Source: Victivallis lenta (GTDB lineage Bacteria > Verrucomicrobiota > Lentisphaeria > Victivallales > Victivallaceae). Taken from it: a DNA stretch of 64,000 bases. The notes beneath the pieces are model-generated. The model was not told the origin of the DNA. It saw nothing but the letters and a program-made list of their open reading frames with translations, and did no database searches. Both the position numbers and the translations under genes were made by a program. Positions 10,099-47,178 of the stretch are shown here, in pieces. Each line of letters starts with the position of its first letter. Position 1 is the stretch's first letter. The stretch lies in the NCBI RefSeq assembly GCF_009695545.1, contig NZ_VUNS01000010.1:62001-126000 (forward strand), written 5' to 3'.

Positions 10099-11943
10099 CT
10101 ACCGGCGGCTGCGGAGCTGCCGAAGCATCTTCAGATCCTTGAACATCAGGACGAAGGTGGCCAGGGAGTGGTTGCAGTGACGGAGAACCCGGTTTTGCGG
10201 CTGCGCCTCCGCTTTGCCGTAGAGCCGCTGCTGCACGAAGTACTGGAAAGCGTCGCCGAATTCCCGGCGCAGGCCGTTCGGCAGGTCGTACCTGCGGCGG
10301 TTGGCTTCGAAGATTCCGCGGCCGAGCTCCCTTGCGATCCGGAGCGGCGGCACGTCCGGAGCGATGCGGAGCACGCCGCCGGAAGGACCGTTCGAAACCC
10401 AGGAGGAGCCTCCCTGTCCGCTCGGGAGCAGGTCGATCCGGTCGATCTCTTTTGTGAGGAGTCCGCGTGTTTCAAGCTGCATCATCAGCCGGTAGCTTTC
10501 CGTGATGACCGCCTCCGCCTCTCTGGTCCACTCGTCGTTCAGGCGGTTGCCGAAGTTTGACAGCAGTTTGACCGTGTGCCGGCTCCGCTGCTGCAGGACA
10601 GGCTCGTTGACCGGCGGGTCGAAGCTCAGGAAGCCGCGCTGCCGCCGGGCCCGGGGGATGCGCGGTTCCGCCGTGGAGACGGCCGTCCGCACGATATCGT
10701 TTTTTTCCGGCGCAGGGGAGGCCTCGGCCGGCGGAGCCGGTTTCGGGGCGGCGACGGCCGCCGGGACGGGCACGGATCCGGTCTGGGATTCCGGAATCGG
10801 AGCGGCCGGTCTGCTCTCCGGCGGTGTCGCCGCCGGAGAAGAGAAACGGACCGCCAGTTCCGGCACCCTCTCTTTCTCCGCTTCTTCCTGCGGCGGCAAC
10901 TCCGTTGCCGCCGGTTCCGGCGGAAGTTCCAGCGGAGTCGGCTCGAACCGCATCATGCGGAGCGCCAGCAGGACCGCGGCCGCAAGGCCGGCCGCCAGAA
11001 GGATTCCGCCGACCCAGAAAAGAAAAACGCGCCGGTGCCGTTTGCGCCGGAACTCCGGCGGCTCAAGTTCCCGCAGGGTGACCGGCGGCCGGTTCTGCAG
11101 CCCCTCCAGCAGCGTGGCGAGAAAGTCGCGCACTTCAAGCCAGCTCCCCGGCCGGTTGGCCGGATTCTTGTCGATCAGTTTTTCGACGAAGGCGACCAGC
11201 GCCGGATCAAGGTCCGGATTGCGCTCCGCCAGCGGCCGGGGGAGGCTGAAAAGGTGTTGTTCAAGAACCTTCTGCGGACTGCCGACGAACGGCGGAGAAC
11301 CGCAGAGCAGCTCGTACAGCATGATGCCGAAGCTGTAAAGGTCGCTCCTGACACCGACGTCGGCGGTTTCGCCCCGGATTACTTCGGGGGCCGCGTAAAG
11401 CGGCGTCGCCATGATGTCGTCGCCGGTGTTGCTGCCGCTGACCCGGGCCAGCCCGAGGTCGGTCAGTTTCAGCTCGCCGGTCTCCTCGGAGATCAGCAGA
11501 TTGCCGGGCTTGATGTCGCCGTGGGTCATCTTGTGGACGGTCCATGCGTAATCAAGCGCCTCGGCCAGTTCGATCGAAAGCCGGAAGATGAGTTCGAAGG
11601 TCAGCAGCTCCGGCGAATTGCGGCGCACATCCTCAAGCGACGGCCCGATCACGAGCTCCATTGCAAAATAGTAATATCCCTCCGGCGTCGCTCCGGCATC
11701 GTAGGCCTGAACGATGTACGGGTGGTCGAGCCGCGCGGCAAGCCGGGCTTCCCGCAGGAAGCTCTCCACATAACCGGGCTCGGCCGCCAGCTCCGGCAGC
11801 AGGATTTTGAAGGCGACCTGGCGGCCGAGCGACTGCTGCTCGGCCAGGTAGACCACGCCGTTGTTGCCCCGGCCGAGCTCGGACTCGACACGGTAACCGG
11901 CCAGGATGGTTCCCGGCGGGATCTGTACGCATTCCAACGGCAT
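10099..11943 (-). CDS. Membrane-anchored Hanks-type serine/threonine protein kinase
   Basis: A 614-residue protein. The kinase domain (about residues 14-275) shows the Gly-rich loop GRGNNG (25-29), the ATP-binding Lys46 (VAFK), the catalytic loop HGDIKPGNLL (141-150, Asp143, Asn148) and the magnesium loop Asp162-Leu-Gly. HRD is changed to HGD and DFG to DLG. A Pro-rich linker and one membrane helix (about 305-328) lead to a Pro/Ala-rich segment and an extracytoplasmic C-terminal domain of about 170 residues that I do not recognise. The HGD change may lower activation-loop control. It is the last gene of a three-gene operon, 16 bases after the zinc-ribbon gene. Confidence 0.93.
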   Translation of the reverse strand: MPLECVQIPPGTILAGYRVESELGRGNNGVVYLAEQQSLGRQVAFKILLPELAAEPGYVESFLREARLAARLDHPYIVQAYDAGATPEGYYYFAMELVIGPSLEDVRRNSPELLTFELIFRLSIELAEALDYAWTVHKMTHGDIKPGNLLISEETGELKLTDLGLARVSGSNTGDDIMATPLYAAPEVIRGETADVGVRSDLYSFGIMLYELLCGSPPFVGSPQKVLEQHLFSLPRPLAERNPDLDPALVAFVEKLIDKNPANRPGSWLEVRDFLATLLEGLQNRPPVTLRELEPPEFRRKRHRRVFLFWVGGILLAAGLAAAVLLALRMMRFEPTPLELPPEPAATELPPQEEAEKERVPELAVRFSSPAATPPESRPAAPIPESQTGSVPVPAAVAAPKPAPPAEASPAPEKNDIVRTAVSTAEPRIPRARRQRGFLSFDPPVNEPVLQQRSRHTVKLLSNFGNRLNDEWTREAEAVITESYRLMMQLETRGLLTKEIDRIDLLPSGQGGSSWVSNGPSGGVLRIAPDVPPLRIARELGRGIFEANRRRYDLPNGLRREFGDAFQYFVQQRLYGKAEAQPQNRVLRHCNHSLATFVLMFKDLKMLRQLRSRR

Positions 11944-11959
11944 GGCTGTTGTGTTTCCG

Positions 11960-12976
11960 TCAGCGCGCGGCGGCGGCTTTCAGGCGCTCAAGCTCCGCTC
12001 CCTGCCGGTCGATGTCGGCAATGAGCTGTTTGAGGTTCTCCTTCATGCTCCGGACCGCGAGCTGGGTGTTGACCCGTTTCGTCGTTCCCTTGCAGTAGAA
12101 GCATTCCCGCTTGCCGGTGCCTTTGCAGGCCGCGCACTGGCCGGAACCGTCGCAGCGCGTGCAGGGCTGATCGACCGATTCGAACTTCTTGCCGACGAGC
12201 TTCGTGGCTTTCATGACTCCGGTACCGTTGCAGGACGGGCATTTGCCGGGATTGCGGACGCAGCTCTGGCACGGGACCGTACCCTGCCTGCCGCACTCTT
12301 CGCACGGCTCTTCGGTGCCGGCCCGGACCTTCTCCTTGTCGGCCGCCAGGGCAAGCGTGGAATCCGCGAGATCCTGCGCCTTCAGGGCGATCGCGGCGGC
12401 ATAGACCGCGGCGATCCGGGTTTCCTCGGAACCGGCGAGCCCGACCGGGAGTCTGAAGTCGGCCACGGCGCCGATGTCGGCAGGCACGAGAGCCGGAGCA
12501 TTCACGATCCGGGCGGCGACGGCTTTGAGCTCATTGAGCTGATCCTGATCCTTCTGCATGCGCCGGAGCGTTTCGGCCCATGCGTCGGCAAGTTTCTTCT
12601 GGTTTTCTTCGGTCGCATACGGCTTCCAGGCGGTGTTCTCCTTCAGCGCGGCGGTGAAGGCTTCGAGCGTGCGGTAGTCGGTCGCGGCGGTCGCTTCGTC
12701 GATGGCGACCTTGATCATCTCGTCGGCGAGCCGTCTGGCGTCGGCGAGGTTCGCGGCCTGCGGATGCTGTTCGATCGCGGCCGCGAGCGCGGTGACGCCG
12801 TCCGCGTTGATCGATGCCGCGGCGACGTCCATCTTCCGTTCGAGCTCCATCGTGTCCGGAATTCTCATGCCGATCATGGCGGCGGCCCCGAGCACGGCGA
12901 GGACGACAAGGACAATGATAATGGCGGAAAGCGGATTTTTCTTCTTCTCCGCTGGCTGATTCGTCTGCTTGTTCAT
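11960..12976 (-). CDS. Membrane protein with DnaJ-type zinc-ribbon repeats
   Basis: A 338-residue protein. One membrane helix near the N-terminus (LSAIIIVLVVLAVLGAAAMI) is followed by a long helical region. Near residues 215-290 there is a cysteine-rich zone with several C-x-x-C-x-G-x-G-like units (CEECGRQG, CPSCNGTG, CTRCDGSG, CAACKGTG, CFYCKGT). This resembles the zinc-finger region of DnaJ, which binds unfolded protein or partners, but no J domain or DnaJ C-terminal domain is seen. It sits between the kinase and a small secreted protein, so it may be a kinase substrate or scaffold. Confidence 0.8.
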   Translation of the reverse strand: MNKQTNQPAEKKKNPLSAIIIVLVVLAVLGAAAMIGMRIPDTMELERKMDVAAASINADGVTALAAAIEQHPQAANLADARRLADEMIKVAIDEATAATDYRTLEAFTAALKENTAWKPYATEENQKKLADAWAETLRRMQKDQDQLNELKAVAARIVNAPALVPADIGAVADFRLPVGLAGSEETRIAAVYAAAIALKAQDLADSTLALAADKEKVRAGTEEPCEECGRQGTVPCQSCVRNPGKCPSCNGTGVMKATKLVGKKFESVDQPCTRCDGSGQCAACKGTGKRECFYCKGTTKRVNTQLAVRSMKENLKQLIADIDRQGAELERLKAAAAR

Positions 12977-12988
12977 GATCCGGATTCC

Positions 12989-13228
12989 TTACTTATTGCT
13001 GCCGGTGTAGTAGCGGATGCAGGCCGAAAGCGCGCGGGTGAACCGGCCCGCTTCGGGGTCGTTCTCCTCCCGGGCCAGCATGCTGCGGCCGTGCGTGGTC
13101 TTTTTCAGCACTTCGGCCGGGACGGTTTCGGCTTTCGGCTGTTCGGCCGGAGCCGCTTCTCCGGCGACGGCCGGAATTGCCGCCAGCGCGGCTGCGCACA
13201 ATAAACTCAGGCAAATCTGTTTTTTCAT
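12989..13228 (-). CDS. Small secreted protein of unknown function
   Basis: A 79-residue protein with a clear Sec signal (MKKQICLSLLCAAALAAIPA, cleavage near residue 22). The mature part is short and Ala/Glu-rich and ends in RFTRALSACIRYYTGSNK. I place the start at 13228 because of a GGAGG about 11 bases before it. It is the first gene of the operon with the zinc-ribbon protein and the kinase, with gaps of 12 and 16 bases. It may be a ligand or partner of the kinase's outer domain, but this is only an inference. Confidence 0.7.
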   Translation of the reverse strand: MKKQICLSLLCAAALAAIPAVAGEAAPAEQPKAETVPAEVLKKTTHGRSMLAREENDPEAGRFTRALSACIRYYTGSNK

Positions 13229-13302
13229 ATCGACAGGTTCCTCCATATGGTATGGAAGTAATCTAGCATGGTGTCGCCGATTTTGCAAATTCCGGGACTG
13301 AT

Positions 13303-13332
13303 AAAAAAAGCCGCCCGCGGCAGACGGGCGGC
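13303..13332 (-). terminator. Rho-independent terminator after the GH2 gene
   Basis: On the minus strand, GCCGCCCG, a seven-base loop, CGGGCGGC, then a run of seven T. It lies about 20 bases after the GH2 stop codon. Confidence 0.85.
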
Positions 13333-13351
13333 CCGGAACTGTGCGGAGCGG

Positions 13352-16300
13352 TTATTCCAGTTCGATGCCGGTGATCTGGAATGTGATCGCCGGGCGCGGA
13401 TACCGGAAGCGGCGGTTGCTGCCGTTGTAAAGGAAGAATTCGCCGCGCAGCTGTCTGCCCTTCATCTTGTCGAGGCCCATCTGCGGGAGCGGAATGCGGA
13501 TTTTCCGCCACTCCGGCCCGTCGCCGCCGACCGTGACCGACTTGCGGAGCGCGCTTTCCCAATCCTTTTCGGCCACGGCGAGGTCGAGCGCGCCCGCCGT
13601 CGGCGTTTTGAGCCAGAAGGTCAGGTAATGATATTCGCGGCCGTCCCACGGGGAGGGATCGAATTTCACGAAGGTGTAGGGAGCCTCCTGCCCGGATGCC
13701 TTCGGGAAGGTGATTTCCCGCACCCGGCCGGTCGAACCGTCGGGAAGCACGGCCGTTTTATCCGACTGTACCGGCAGGGGAGCGCCTTTGACCGTATTGC
13801 CGCCTTTGCTCCAGACGCCCGGCTTCGCCGCCGTGTCGATCGCGAGCGGCGCGGGATTCGCTCTCTCCCCGGTTGCGGCGATGAGAACCGGCACCGGCGT
13901 TTTGCTCGGGTCGAAGTTGATCGTGTTCGCGTCGGGACAGGAGGCGGAGAGGAAGTCCATCGTTTTGATCTCCTTCTCCGGAAACGGGTTTTCCCACGCG
14001 GCGACATAAGTGCCGACCTCCTTCGACAGATTCGGGCGCAGAATGCCCGGCATCGCGTTGGAGAGATAGCCGCAGTTCCACCAGTCTCCGATGTTGACGC
14101 CCGGAATCAGCGGATAGTCGACGGTGCTTCCGTCCGCATAGTGCATGCGGTAGCGGCCCGCTTCGGCGCCGTCCCATGCGGCGGTGTGCAGGAAGAAGAG
14201 GCGGCTGAATCTGCCGTTGACCGGGATGCCGCGCGCCGCGTCCGGGAAATTCGGGCGTTCGGTGCCGCGGAGGACGATGCAGCTTTTGCCGCCGTTCTTC
14301 GCCGGATCGATGATTTCGAACAGCACGCCGGCGGCCTTCTGCCGGCCGAGCGGCATGTTGCGGAAGTCGTTGCTGCCCTGATCGGTCCAGCCGCCCTTGC
14401 CGTCGTTGTCGGCTTCGTCGGTGAAGCTGCGGTTCGCATGTCCGGTCAGGTCGAGCGGAACGAGGTTCTTTTCGACTGCCGGAAAACTGCCGTCCTGATT
14501 GGCCGCGAGCGGCTCGATTTTGTCGAAACGTCCGGTTCCGAGCACGTATTCGAGCACGTTGCGCAGGTAGGTCGATGCCGAGCTCTCCTTGCCCCAGAGC
14601 GCGATCGCGTTGAGCTGCGTCCAGAAGATGGCGCCCTTGCCGACGGCCGCTTCGAGGATCGCGGTCTCGATGCTGCGTCCGCCGAGCATCGGCCCCTTGA
14701 CGGCCAGCGCATTGACCGAGAACGGCGCGATGCCGCCCGAGATCACGAAGCCGTCCTTTGCCCCGCTCCAGGTGTCGAAATTCTTCTGAGAGAGCCCTTT
14801 GAATACCGGATGGGCCGGGTGGACGAGGTCGACGAACGTGTTGCTGCTCGTCAGGACGGCCATATCGTTGACGGCAGGGCCGGTGACGTAGCTTTGTTCC
14901 AGCACGAGCAGCGTTCCGCCCTGCCGCACCCAGTCGAAGAGGGCCTTGCGGTCGATTTTCATCGGTTCGGCGTTTTCTTCCGCCGCCGGGATGATTGCGA
15001 CATCCGCCTTGCCGGGTGACGCGCTGCCGGGGACGATTGCGAAGGGGATTCCCAGCTGTTTCAGGACCGCCCCGGTCCGGCCGGCGTCTTCGCGGCTGCC
15101 CGTGTCGAGGACGACGACCCGTTTGGCGGTCCTGACCGGAACCGTCAGGATCGCCGGGTCCTGCACGAAACAGTCGTAGAAGTTCCGGCTGATCTCTCTG
15201 CCGTTCACTTTCAGCACGAGACGGAGCTGAGCGTCGCCGCGGACGCCGTCCGGCACCCGGAAGCGGACCGGCGCGGTCGCGACCCTGAACGGTTCTGCGG
15301 CCGGCGTCGGGAAGGTTCCGGCCGGAAGCTCCCGCCCGTCGGCGGTGACGCAGGTCAGTTCGGCCGTTCCGGCCGGCACCGGCCGGTCCGTGCTGTCGGC
15401 GATGTAGAGCGTGAAGTCGTTCTCGCGGCCGGAAAAGAGCCCGCGCGGCATGATCGACTGCTCATCGCGCAGGCCGACCAGAACCGGCTGATTCCAGAGG
15501 GTCGCGGCCTTGAGCCGGTAGCCGTGGAACCACGGCGCGAAGCCGTCGATCCGCTCATCCTGGCGCATGAGTTCGAGCAGCCGTTTGCCGTAAACCTCCT
15601 TGGCGTAATCCATTGAACCGGGCTGCAGCGCTTTGGCCAGGCCGATCGTGCCGGAGTAGCCGATTCCGTTCGGCTCGCCCCAGCTGGTCGGTTTGGCGGC
15701 GTATTTCGCATACTGTTTCATGTCGTTCGGCCGGAAGCTCCGGTCGGTCATGCCGCCCCAGGAGAAGCCGACGCACTCCCAGATGATGTACGGCATCGGG
15801 AGCCGGCTGCCGTCGATCTTGTAATCCCGGAGCGAGCCGTTGTACATCGTATCGAAGTTCCGGTTCCAGATGGTCCACGGGCTGCCGCCGTTGCCGATGT
15901 AGCTGTGCAGATCGAGGAAGTCGGTCGTCCTCGGGTCGCGCCCGTAGCTGGTCCAGCTGGCGGAGCCGGAGAACGACCCGGCCGGCCGCTTCTGCTTGTC
16001 GAAGGCGCGGACGAGTTCGACCTGCCGGTCGAGCTGCCGCTGCACGGACGGGTTGTCGCGGTGCACGACCTCGTTGCCGCACGACCACAGGACGACCGAC
16101 GGATGGTTGTAGTCGCGCACGAGCCACTCTTCGAGTTCAACCGGATTGCGTTTCGAGAATTCGGGTTCGTCGATGAAATTCGTGAAGCACCAGCCCCACT
16201 CGTCGTAGATCATGAGGCCGATTTCGTCGGCATACCGGTAAAGTTCCGGCAGCGCCGGCATGTGGGCGTTGCGGATGATGTTGTATCCGAGGCTCTTGAA

Positions 16301-17485
16301 ACCCTGCAGCTTGTCGATGAGGTGCTTCCGGTTCGCTTCTTCGTCGCCGAGGCCGCCGAAATTGACCGAGCGGAGATTTTCACCGAAAAGGTAGATGCGC
16401 CTGCCGTTCAGATGGAATTTGCCGTTCCGGATCGTGAAGTCGCGGAAGCCGAACCGCTCCGAACGGGCCGTGAGCGGTCTGCCGTCCTGCAGCAGATAGA
16501 GGGTCGCATAGTAGAGGAACGGGTTGCCGGGCTCCCATCTGACCGGGTCCTTCAGCCTGACGGAGATGCTGCCGGCGTTCCTGCCGGGCCTGAGCCGGAG
16601 CGTTTCGGGCGCGGCGGCGGCATTGAGCTTGTTCGGCCCGGTTTTCAGCGCGGTGGTGACCGCGGCGCCGATTTCGACGTCGACCGGCCTGTCGGCCGGA
16701 TTTTCGATCCGGTAATCAAGCTCGACCGTGTCGTCGGCGAGATGCGGGGTGACCAGCAGCCGCTCGATGCGGACCGGCGTCGTGAAGACAAGATCGACAT
16801 CCTGCCAGATGCCGCCCTTGATGTTGCTGACGCTCCACTGGGAACCGTAGGTGCGGGCGCCGAGCCGGATTTTGCTCCGGGCCGGCCCGAAGTCGGAGAA
16901 AACCTGCAGGGCGAGAAGGTTTTTTCCGGGCTTCAGGAACCGGGTGATGTCGATCTCCCACGGAACGAAGTCGCCGTGGTGGCTGCCGGCCTTTTCGCCG
17001 TTGACCCAGAGCGTGGCTTCGTAGCCGACGGTTCCGAACCGCAGCAGGACCGCCTTGTTCCTGAGTTCGGCGGCGGTGAGGTCGATGGTTTTGCGGTACC
17101 AGCCTTTTACATAGGGCTCGTCCTCTTTATAGATCTTCGGGTATTTCCGGTACCAGTTGAGCGGAACGGCGATTTTGTCCCACTTCGAATCGTCGAAACC
17201 GGGCTTCTCGCAGCCTTTGCCGGCATCGGTTCCGGCCGGAAACGGCGTGGCGGAGCGTTCAAGCCCCGAGCAGAGCCATTCTCCGTTCAGCGAACGGACG
17301 GCGGCGAAGCGGCCGCTGTCGATCTCCGGGCCGCCGGGCGGGGTGAAGCGGACCTTGTCCGGCCCGATCGTCGTGCCGGCCGGGGCGATCGGCTCCGGCG
17401 GCGGATTGAACGGCGGAATATCCGCTGCGGCTGCCGCGGCCAGCGTGAACACGGCCGCTCCGGCTGCGAGAAAAGTCCTGATCAT
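13352..17485 (-). CDS. Large secreted glycoside hydrolase family 2 enzyme
   Basis: A 1377-residue protein with a signal peptide (residues 1-21). The GH2 order is visible: an N-terminal sugar-binding domain, an immunoglobulin-like domain, and a TIM barrel with the acid/base Glu472 in WSCGNEVVH and a likely nucleophile Glu570 in IIWECVGFSW. After residue 640 there are about 700 more residues. One part (about 780-900) looks like a ThuA/GATase-like Rossmann domain (KADVAIIPAAEENAE, then WVRQGGTLLVLEQ), and the C-terminus looks like a beta-sandwich carbohydrate-binding module. Beta-galactosidase, beta-glucuronidase or beta-mannosidase activities are all possible. The LacI gene upstream is the likely regulator. 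Confidence 0.9.
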   Translation of the reverse strand: MIRTFLAAGAAVFTLAAAAAADIPPFNPPPEPIAPAGTTIGPDKVRFTPPGGPEIDSGRFAAVRSLNGEWLCSGLERSATPFPAGTDAGKGCEKPGFDDSKWDKIAVPLNWYRKYPKIYKEDEPYVKGWYRKTIDLTAAELRNKAVLLRFGTVGYEATLWVNGEKAGSHHGDFVPWEIDITRFLKPGKNLLALQVFSDFGPARSKIRLGARTYGSQWSVSNIKGGIWQDVDLVFTTPVRIERLLVTPHLADDTVELDYRIENPADRPVDVEIGAAVTTALKTGPNKLNAAAAPETLRLRPGRNAGSISVRLKDPVRWEPGNPFLYYATLYLLQDGRPLTARSERFGFRDFTIRNGKFHLNGRRIYLFGENLRSVNFGGLGDEEANRKHLIDKLQGFKSLGYNIIRNAHMPALPELYRYADEIGLMIYDEWGWCFTNFIDEPEFSKRNPVELEEWLVRDYNHPSVVLWSCGNEVVHRDNPSVQRQLDRQVELVRAFDKQKRPAGSFSGSASWTSYGRDPRTTDFLDLHSYIGNGGSPWTIWNRNFDTMYNGSLRDYKIDGSRLPMPYIIWECVGFSWGGMTDRSFRPNDMKQYAKYAAKPTSWGEPNGIGYSGTIGLAKALQPGSMDYAKEVYGKRLLELMRQDERIDGFAPWFHGYRLKAATLWNQPVLVGLRDEQSIMPRGLFSGRENDFTLYIADSTDRPVPAGTAELTCVTADGRELPAGTFPTPAAEPFRVATAPVRFRVPDGVRGDAQLRLVLKVNGREISRNFYDCFVQDPAILTVPVRTAKRVVVLDTGSREDAGRTGAVLKQLGIPFAIVPGSASPGKADVAIIPAAEENAEPMKIDRKALFDWVRQGGTLLVLEQSYVTGPAVNDMAVLTSSNTFVDLVHPAHPVFKGLSQKNFDTWSGAKDGFVISGGIAPFSVNALAVKGPMLGGRSIETAILEAAVGKGAIFWTQLNAIALWGKESSASTYLRNVLEYVLGTGRFDKIEPLAANQDGSFPAVEKNLVPLDLTGHANRSFTDEADNDGKGGWTDQGSNDFRNMPLGRQKAAGVLFEIIDPAKNGGKSCIVLRGTERPNFPDAARGIPVNGRFSRLFFLHTAAWDGAEAGRYRMHYADGSTVDYPLIPGVNIGDWWNCGYLSNAMPGILRPNLSKEVGTYVAAWENPFPEKEIKTMDFLSASCPDANTINFDPSKTPVPVLIAATGERANPAPLAIDTAAKPGVWSKGGNTVKGAPLPVQSDKTAVLPDGSTGRVREITFPKASGQEAPYTFVKFDPSPWDGREYHYLTFWLKTPTAGALDLAVAEKDWESALRKSVTVGGDGPEWRKIRIPLPQMGLDKMKGRQLRGEFFLYNGSNRRFRYPRPAITFQITGIELE

Positions 17486-45172: not shown

Positions 45173-46474
45173 TCATTCCGTGCCGCGGTTCCGGTAGCCC
45201 GCTTTTTCTCCGGGCGGCGCGTCGAATGCGGTGCCGATTCCGTCCCGGCCGGCGGATGCCTGCGGCAGGGCTTCGGCGGTCTCCTCGGGCGTCAGGAGCC
45301 GGCAGGTGTCGAGTCCGGCCACTTTCGCCTCCGTTTCGGCGGTGAATGCCGCGGCCGCCGTCGTGGTCGGAGCGATGAGACATGCGGCAAGCCGGGCTTC
45401 GCCCTTCTGGTCGGCATCCACGGCGATCGCGTTGCCGATGAATGTGCAGCCGACGGCCGCCGCCCTGCCGCCGCCGCAGACGTGAAGTCCGGCTTCGGTT
45501 CCGCTTCCGCCGCGCTTTTCCGCATAGCCGCCGAGGCAGTTGCGGAGTTCCGCATCGCCCCAGATGCGGAAATTGCGCTTGTTGCGCAGGGCGATGCAGT
45601 TTATCAGTACGGCGTTGCGGGTTTTGATGTCCCAGCCGCCGTCGGTGCAGTCGAAGGCGCGGCAGTTGACCCAGGTGATGCTGCGGGTGTTCGCCTCGGC
45701 GCAGAAGCCGTCCGCATTCCAGTATTTGTCTCCGGCATCGTCATAGGCGTTGCGGGCGACGCAGTCTTCAAACCGGATATCCGAGTCGATCGTCCCTTTG
45801 ACGCCGCCCGTGCCGAAACACATCTGGAATTTTTCCGTGGCGAACTCTCTGCCGCCGGCGTCGGAGATGACGCTGCGGACAACGGCCTGCGTGATTCCGC
45901 CCTGCAGCCGCACGCCGCGCTTGGAGAAGCCCGTCATGGTGCAGTTTTCGATCCGGATTCCGGTTCCTCCGTTCAGGTAAATGCCGTCCCGGATGCGGGT
46001 GAAGTCGCAGTTGCGGATCACGAGACTGCTGTTGTCGCCGAACCCCATGACGCCTTCCCGGTAATCCGTGACCAGGAATCCGTCGATTTCGATGTGGGAG
46101 GCTCCTTTGCGAAGCTGAATGAAGTCGCGTCCTTTGGACGGCTCCTGCTTTTCCCAGTTTGCCGTGAAGCGCGGATAGCCGTCTGCGCCTTTCCGGCCGA
46201 TCAGTTTTTTGACCTTTCCCTCGCGTCCGCCGTTGCCGGCGGTGATGACCAAACTCTGATCGGCATAGACGCCGGGGGCTACGAAAACCGTTCCGCCCGG
46301 CGCGGCCAGCTCCCATGCCGCGGCGATGGAGGCGCAGGCGTTTTCGGGATCGGCGCCGGTCCGGGAGCCGGAGCCTCCCGGGCTGACATAAACGATTTCC
46401 GGCAGTTCGGCGGCAGCGGCCGGCAGAACGCCGGACAGTACGGCGGAGAACAGAAGACAGAACAGCATTTTCAT
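45173..46474 (-). CDS. Secreted right-handed beta-helix protein
   Basis: A 433-residue protein with a signal peptide ([20 protein letters not shown]). The N-terminal LPEIVYVSPGGSGSRTGADP and AAAWELAAPGGTVFVAPGVY are typical of beta-helix polysaccharide lyases and related proteins. Repeated coils (SHIEIDGFLVTDYREG, NSSLVIRNCDFTRIRDGIYL, TGIRIENCTMTGFSKRG) build the helix, and YWNADGFCAEANTRS fits the calcium-site region of PL9-like enzymes. It may cleave or bind acidic polysaccharides. Its ATG shares one base with the pseudopilin stop codon, so the two are co-translated. Confidence 0.85.
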   Translation of the reverse strand: MKMLFCLLFSAVLSGVLPAAAAELPEIVYVSPGGSGSRTGADPENACASIAAAWELAAPGGTVFVAPGVYADQSLVITAGNGGREGKVKKLIGRKGADGYPRFTANWEKQEPSKGRDFIQLRKGASHIEIDGFLVTDYREGVMGFGDNSSLVIRNCDFTRIRDGIYLNGGTGIRIENCTMTGFSKRGVRLQGGITQAVVRSVISDAGGREFATEKFQMCFGTGGVKGTIDSDIRFEDCVARNAYDDAGDKYWNADGFCAEANTRSITWVNCRAFDCTDGGWDIKTRNAVLINCIALRNKRNFRIWGDAELRNCLGGYAEKRGGSGTEAGLHVCGGGRAAAVGCTFIGNAIAVDADQKGEARLAACLIAPTTTAAAAFTAETEAKVAGLDTCRLLTPEETAEALPQASAGRDGIGTAFDAPPGEKAGYRNRGTE

Positions 46475-47178
46475 CAGAAAGCGTATCCTTTCGCTGCGGC
46501 ATTGGCTCCCCAGAACGAGGTTTCGCGGTTGGACGGCATGGCATAATAATCAATGTTTCCGACATGGCCGTCGAGGAAAGCCGCGTTCCGGCTGCCGCGC
46601 GGATGCCGCAGAAGCGGCACCGGCATCCCGGATTCCCAGGCCATATTTTCGTGAACATAGGTTTTTTTGCGGTAGGACGAATTCGACATGGCGTCGTCGC
46701 GGTCCATGATCAGCATGCGCATCGAAGCGAATTTCACCTTGAGGATGTGTCCGGAACATTTTCCGCTGCCGTTCTCGGCCTGTCCCAGATAGTAGTTGAG
46801 GCCGTAGTGGTACATGAGATCGTCCGCCTGTGCCGGGCAGGCGAACTGCGGCAGCGGCTGCGAATGGTCTTCGTTCAGGGAAATCTGCTGCCGCACCGGG
46901 CCGCCGTAACCCATGTACGGATAAATGAAGTCCTGCCATTTCACATAACGCCAGGCGATGTCCGCCACGCCGCCGCCGTCAAAAGGCGGCAGAATTTCCC
47001 GGTTGTCCGCGGCATAGGAGCGCAGCGCCGTTGCCTGCTGCTTCAGGTTGCCGATGCAGTTTGCGCTGCGCCCGCGTTCCCGCGCCTGCGAGAGGGCCGG
47101 GAGCAGCATGGCAGCGAGAATCGCGATGATCGCAATAACTACCAGCAGTTCGATCAGGGTGAATTTTTCCGCTTTCAT
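46474..47178 (-). CDS. Type II secretion-type pseudopilin (prepilin N-terminal motif, H-x-G C-terminus)
   Basis: A 234-residue protein with a prepilin leader and hydrophobic helix ([20 protein letters not shown]), the cleavage point before Phe with Glu5. The C-terminal part ([20 protein letters not shown]) is the H-x-G...DGH motif of DUF1559-like Planctomycetes/Lentisphaerae pseudopilins. Such proteins are present in very many copies in these genomes, often beside a glycosidase or lyase gene. An AAAGGGA site lies before the ATG. It is coupled to the beta-helix gene (one-base overlap) and follows the regulator gene by 112 bases. It may help display or export the lyase. Confidence 0.92.

Follow-up and report, generated by a model that had tools for sequence, protein, structure and literature searches.

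PknB/PrkC PASTA kinases combine a cytosolic kinase domain, one transmembrane helix and an outer sensor domain, and the kinase described here has the same arrangement. To our knowledge, most bacterial receptor kinases have no known ligand. Plant non-RD receptor kinases, for example EFR, share with this kinase both the receptor architecture and the absence of an arginine before the catalytic aspartate (PMC8463890). Kinases without the HRD arginine (non-RD) have been described as a class of their own: their activity in vitro is low, and they differ in how far they require phosphorylation of the activation loop (PMC8463890). Two groups of proteins outside the kinases are also relevant. The fold of the gluzincin metallopeptidases (M1, M4, M36 and PPEP-1) resembles that of the kinase outer domain, as judged from a predicted model and structural alignment. 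The central zinc domain of DnaJ (PF00684) shares motifs of the CxxCxGxG type with a protein encoded next to the kinase, here called the zinc protein, and gives a weak profile match to it. A third gene encodes a small exported protein. The three genes, referred to as the trio, are carried by a Victivallis genome of 5.5 Mb; among its named relatives, uncultured Victivallis species come closest to it. Their positions in the window, which is the whole stretch of 64,000 nucleotides that was analyzed, are as follows.

10099..11943, minus strand: transmembrane Hanks-type kinase, 614 aa
10102..10623, minus strand: kinase outer domain, residues 441-614 (alignments, model, fold comparison, HExxH scan)
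11104..11895, minus strand: kinase catalytic domain (alignment)
11960..12976, minus strand: zinc protein, membrane-anchored, 338 aa
12989..13228, minus strand: small exported protein, 79 aa (translation, orthologue alignment, selection test)
13258..13289, minus strand: conserved promoter-like block (both elements invariant in three species)
13308..13334, minus strand: intrinsic terminator-like hairpin and T run
13352-17485, minus strand: GH2 gene, upstream of the trio

The trio reads, 5' to 3', small exported protein, zinc protein and kinase, the genes lying 12 and 16 bases apart on the minus strand, and the arrangement of kinase, zinc protein and secreted peptide in one operon was as the earlier note had described. 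The same genes in the same order were found in two uncultured Victivallis species (L017 and L018), and the intergenic gaps measure 12-21 bases across the three species. Judged from the sequence, the trio looks like a tight one-direction operon and apparently forms one transcription unit in all three. The earlier note had itself set as a test that the genes be kept together elsewhere. This held within the genus, in three species with differing flanks and as a looser pair in a fourth, and failed beyond it: homologue searches of 137 genomes of the order recovered the complete trio in three, all Victivallis, and in none outside this genus. Full-length small and zinc proteins were confined to genomes that also have the long kinase. 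Identities of the L017 and L018 proteins to those of the window were 58-59% for the kinase, 56-58% for the zinc protein and 54-60% for the small protein. The trio genes are under purifying selection (kinase domain, for instance, dN 0.12 and dS 1.1). The flanks of the trio differ in each species, the gene upstream being GH2 in the window, phosphatase-like in L017 and a divergent LacI-type regulator in L018. Synonymous sites of the orthologues are near saturation, with dS mostly 1.1-1.7; the trio arrangement is therefore old and has persisted despite these differing flanks. The product of the phosphatase-like gene (L017:4008-4514), directly upstream of the trio, is small, has the phosphatase loop CAAGISR and weakly matches dual-specificity phosphatases; neither in the window nor in L018 does this gene adjoin the trio.

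In each of the three trio carriers the small gene is immediately preceded by a promoter-like block. It consists of two invariant elements, TTTGCAAAAT and CATGCTAGATTAC, separated by nine less conserved bases. In promoter terms these would give a -35-like TTGCAA and an extended -10-like TGCTAGATT, with a spacer of 17 bases between the two. A relaxed form of this promoter pattern had a single exact match within the 64-kb window, at the trio site. The terminator-like hairpin with its T run sits between the GH2 gene and the trio. Elsewhere in the window, positions 46474-47178 encode a pseudopilin-like protein with a prepilin-type N-terminus, as read from its sequence. The occurrence of the complete trio in just three species of one genus would suit three functionally unrelated, lineage-specific genes that are co-transcribed by chance. 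We consider this decidedly improbable: at the dS values given above the arrangement has been long-lived despite the different flanks, the promoter block is shared by the three species, and a related zinc/kinase pairing occurs in another Victivallis genome (G007). Searches of a limited body of literature returned no description of the trio, as the earlier note had supposed, and none of Victivallis kinases.

The kinase comprises a kinase domain (residues 17-280), a transmembrane helix (308-326), a Pro/Ala-rich linker and the outer domain (441-614). The Pfam Pkinase match (E = 2e-44, 152.3 bits against a cut-off of 31.7) and the catalytic residues place it among the Hanks-type protein kinases. 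The catalytic loop reads THGDIKPGN and the magnesium loop TDLGLAR, so that HGD without the arginine of HRD, and DLG, had been read correctly. Residues K46, E65, HGD 141-143, N148, DLG 162-164, APE, D201 and R264 were invariant in four kinase homologues. Since all catalytic residues are present, the kinase is probably active and of the non-RD type. The emphasis previously placed on HGD and DLG was misplaced. Of the 30 Victivallales kinases that match best, 21 have both motifs (19 by strict pattern, plus L042 and L049), five have HRD and four have DFG; HGD and DLG are the normal signature of this kinase clade. With that frequency and with intact catalytic residues, the two motifs were ruled out as the mark of an unusual or inactive kinase. 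What appears to be undescribed is the outer domain and the trio; the motifs are already ordinary for the kinase family, which is found widely in the order (in 96 of the 137 genomes searched, at E <= 1e-60). Identity to the window protein was about 80% in the kinase domain, 47% in the outer domain and 28% in the linker, and constraint was strongest in the kinase domain and weaker in the outer domain and linker. In G007 (L063:7273-8567), G001 (L065:2812-4064) and G005 (L066:3225-4492) a related kinase adjoins NAD-kinase-like and RNA-methyltransferase-like genes, a neighbourhood which is perhaps an older location of the related kinase.

The outer domain is common to seven Victivallis kinases. It matched no family in Pfam, and a sequence search of the PDB brought up only two proteins, one designed and the other from a viral capsid, which were put down to chance. 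Across the wider phylum just one more match appeared, a weak one in G285 (E = 5e-4). L082:826-1962 and L083:1-1008, from a different genus of the family, encode separate proteins with the same putative pseudo-gluzincin domain and no kinase; the L082 protein has an export signal. A model of the outer domain built from three orthologues (pLDDT 87.7, pTM 0.86) consists of two helices, three strands and two long helices. Foldseek returned weak matches only, the top one being an M61 peptidase at E 0.05, and none below that value. In a second structural comparison all 50 of the 50 listed chains were gluzincin metallopeptidases (M1, M4, M36 and PPEP-1). The best was ERAP1, with a Z of 8.7 over 151 residues at 3.8 A, and rank 50 still had a Z of 6.8. 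Models that match nothing clearly often still reach a best Z of 7-8, so the weight of the assignment lies on the uniformity of the list and on the coverage of nearly the whole domain. A gluzincin fold is thus predicted for the outer domain by structural alignment, the Foldseek result by itself being weak.

The peptidase motif HExxH was absent from the outer domain in all seven aligned homologues, and no HExxH was found behind the kinase domain in any related kinase scanned. At the equivalent positions the window has RELGR, and the homologues have RALGE, GALGA, RELGV, RELGR, RAIGK and DQMIA; in the trio kinases this helix is RELGR, RALGE or GALGA. From the motif and the order of elements, we infer that the RELGR helix corresponds to the gluzincin zinc-binding helix. 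Peptidase_MA_2 gave no match in relatives, but none in the control either, so this result carries no weight. Since the predicted gluzincin fold comes without HExxH, the outer domain is read as a dead peptidase: it looks like a pseudo-peptidase, which would have lost its zinc ligands and be used for binding or sensing.

The zinc protein has a basic N-terminal tail, one transmembrane helix (19-37), a helical region, six CxxC pairs (225-295) and a C-terminal helix. All six pairs are kept in the three orthologues, and three of the six are CxxCxGxG. Its description as a DnaJ-type zinc protein needs correction. There is a weak match to the Pfam DnaJ zinc domain (PF00684; 27.6 bits, below the cut-off of 32.7), but Pfam found no J domain, the NCBIfam DnaJ models touched the zinc region only, the sequence has no HPD, and the CxxC pairs number six and not four. 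It has neither the J domain with HPD nor the central zinc domain of four CxxCxGxG motifs that define DnaJ/Hsp40 proteins. In a model of the whole protein the zinc domain came out with low confidence (pLDDT 27-41 by block), and fold comparison brought nothing useful. Among the 137 genomes of the order, the zinc protein was found in the three trio species and as a diverged, lipoprotein-like relative of 599 residues in G001. At L068:5031-8089 the gene for this relative follows that for a membrane protein bearing a zinc ribbon at its N-terminus, and no kinase is nearby. Other exported proteins in the phylum have multi-CxxC domains like that of the zinc protein, and the domain is therefore not unique to the operon. 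One such exported protein, from another family of the phylum (L089, a minus-strand frame of 511 codons), carries two copies of a multi-CxxC zinc domain in one chain.

From hydropathy and from the basic residues before its transmembrane helix, the zinc protein is predicted to have its zinc domain outside the membrane. The same two features of the kinase put the kinase outer domain on that side as well. The predicted cytosolic part of the zinc protein would be the first 18 or so residues only. These contain T5 and S17 in the window, no Ser or Thr in L017 and S15 in L018, none of them conserved. The earlier note had seen in the zinc protein a substrate or scaffold of the kinase. In favour of a substrate, the two genes share an operon, and the kinase gene of G007 is directly preceded by that for another membrane-anchored protein, which has a long coiled repeat and two CxxCxGxG motifs; this makes a looser zinc-protein/kinase pair in a fourth species. 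Against a role as substrate stand the zinc domain predicted outside and a short cytosolic tail without a conserved Ser or Thr, and we regard it as very improbable. A role as scaffold is possible outside the membrane only.

The small protein has a Sec-type signal peptide (about residues 1-23), a variable linker and a conserved C-terminal block, KKTTHGRSMLARxxxDPExGRFxRALSACIxxYTGS, which is under purifying selection (dN 0.22, dS 1.3). It was credibly found only in the three trio species among the 137 genomes of the order; four further matches at E 0.002-0.008 were taken as chance. The kinase outer domain and the small protein are a plausible sensing pair, as had been proposed, since both are predicted on the same side of the membrane and the modelled outer domain resembles a peptide-binding fold without catalysis. 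Taken as a whole, the earlier interpretation is partly supported.

The reading that we tentatively prefer, its chance of being right a little short of even, is that the three genes make up an envelope-sensing receptor kinase system, with a pseudo-peptidase outer domain under the control of the exported protein and the zinc protein. Sequence or model supports the individual parts, and their layout suits a receptor kinase with its accessories outside; ligand, partner binding and target are inferences. The reading is favoured by the kept order and close spacing of the trio amid differing flanks, the restriction of the full-length partners to genomes with the long kinase, the promoter-like block, the invariant catalytic residues and strong constraint on the kinase domain, and an outer-domain model with gluzincin matches but no HExxH, predicted on the same side as the zinc domain. 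The outer domain would bind a peptide or protein through the former substrate groove. The co-encoded small protein would be its most likely ligand or regulator, and the zinc protein might act as an outer co-receptor or a holding chaperone; the operon structure, the shared compartment and the conserved C-terminal block are the reasons for casting the small protein as ligand and the zinc protein as helper. Binding of the ligand would alter dimerisation of the kinase, which would then phosphorylate cytosolic targets. This envelope-sensing model is weakened by three other Victivallis genomes (G004, G005 and G006), whose kinases keep the outer domain with neither partner gene nearby: the outer domain does not need the partners everywhere. 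The weak Foldseek result, the modest best Z and the absence of a Pfam family for the outer domain also count against the model. The domain further occurs by itself in the two proteins of the other genus mentioned above (G011 and G028), one of them with a visible export signal. The kinases without partners and these separate proteins favour the main rival, that the outer domain senses something else (a cell-wall fragment, a sugar or another protein), as in other Hanks-type receptor kinases, and that the partners are accessory members of an envelope unit. Adjacency of the three genes has outlasted the change of both flanks in three species, and conservation is higher in the C-terminal block of the small protein than in the outer domain of the kinase, which argues against this rival; we hold it to be possible, on the unlikely side.

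Within the preferred envelope-sensing reading a more specific proposal can be made, which is bolder and which we rate as unlikely. The receptor kinase would reuse a dead gluzincin peptidase as an outer peptide receptor, controlled by the co-encoded exported protein and with the zinc protein as co-receptor, so that the operon would be a self-contained peptide-to-kinase unit. If this is true, a recognisable inactivated peptidase fold is encoded beside its candidate ligand, and ligand recognition in this kinase class becomes directly testable. It would also illustrate how an enzyme fold can be put to new use as a receptor.

Among the known systems, the PASTA kinases have the same layout as the trio kinase. 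Its best NCBIfam match was PknB_PASTA_kin, at 210.8 bits against a cut-off of 450 and over the kinase domain only (17-284). It differs from these kinases in having no PASTA match in Pfam, a predicted pseudo-gluzincin outer domain, and HGD instead of HRD. Neither PASTA repeats nor a score above the NCBIfam cut-off place it in that family. The zinc protein shares its motif type with DnaJ, but is membrane-anchored with its zinc domain predicted outside, and has six CxxC pairs where DnaJ has four, and no J domain. Relative to the active gluzincins, the outer domain is without HExxH, and no zinc site is expected in it. The outer domain is likewise unrelated to that of the plant non-RD receptor kinases; the non-RD state is a lineage trait in the kinases described here.
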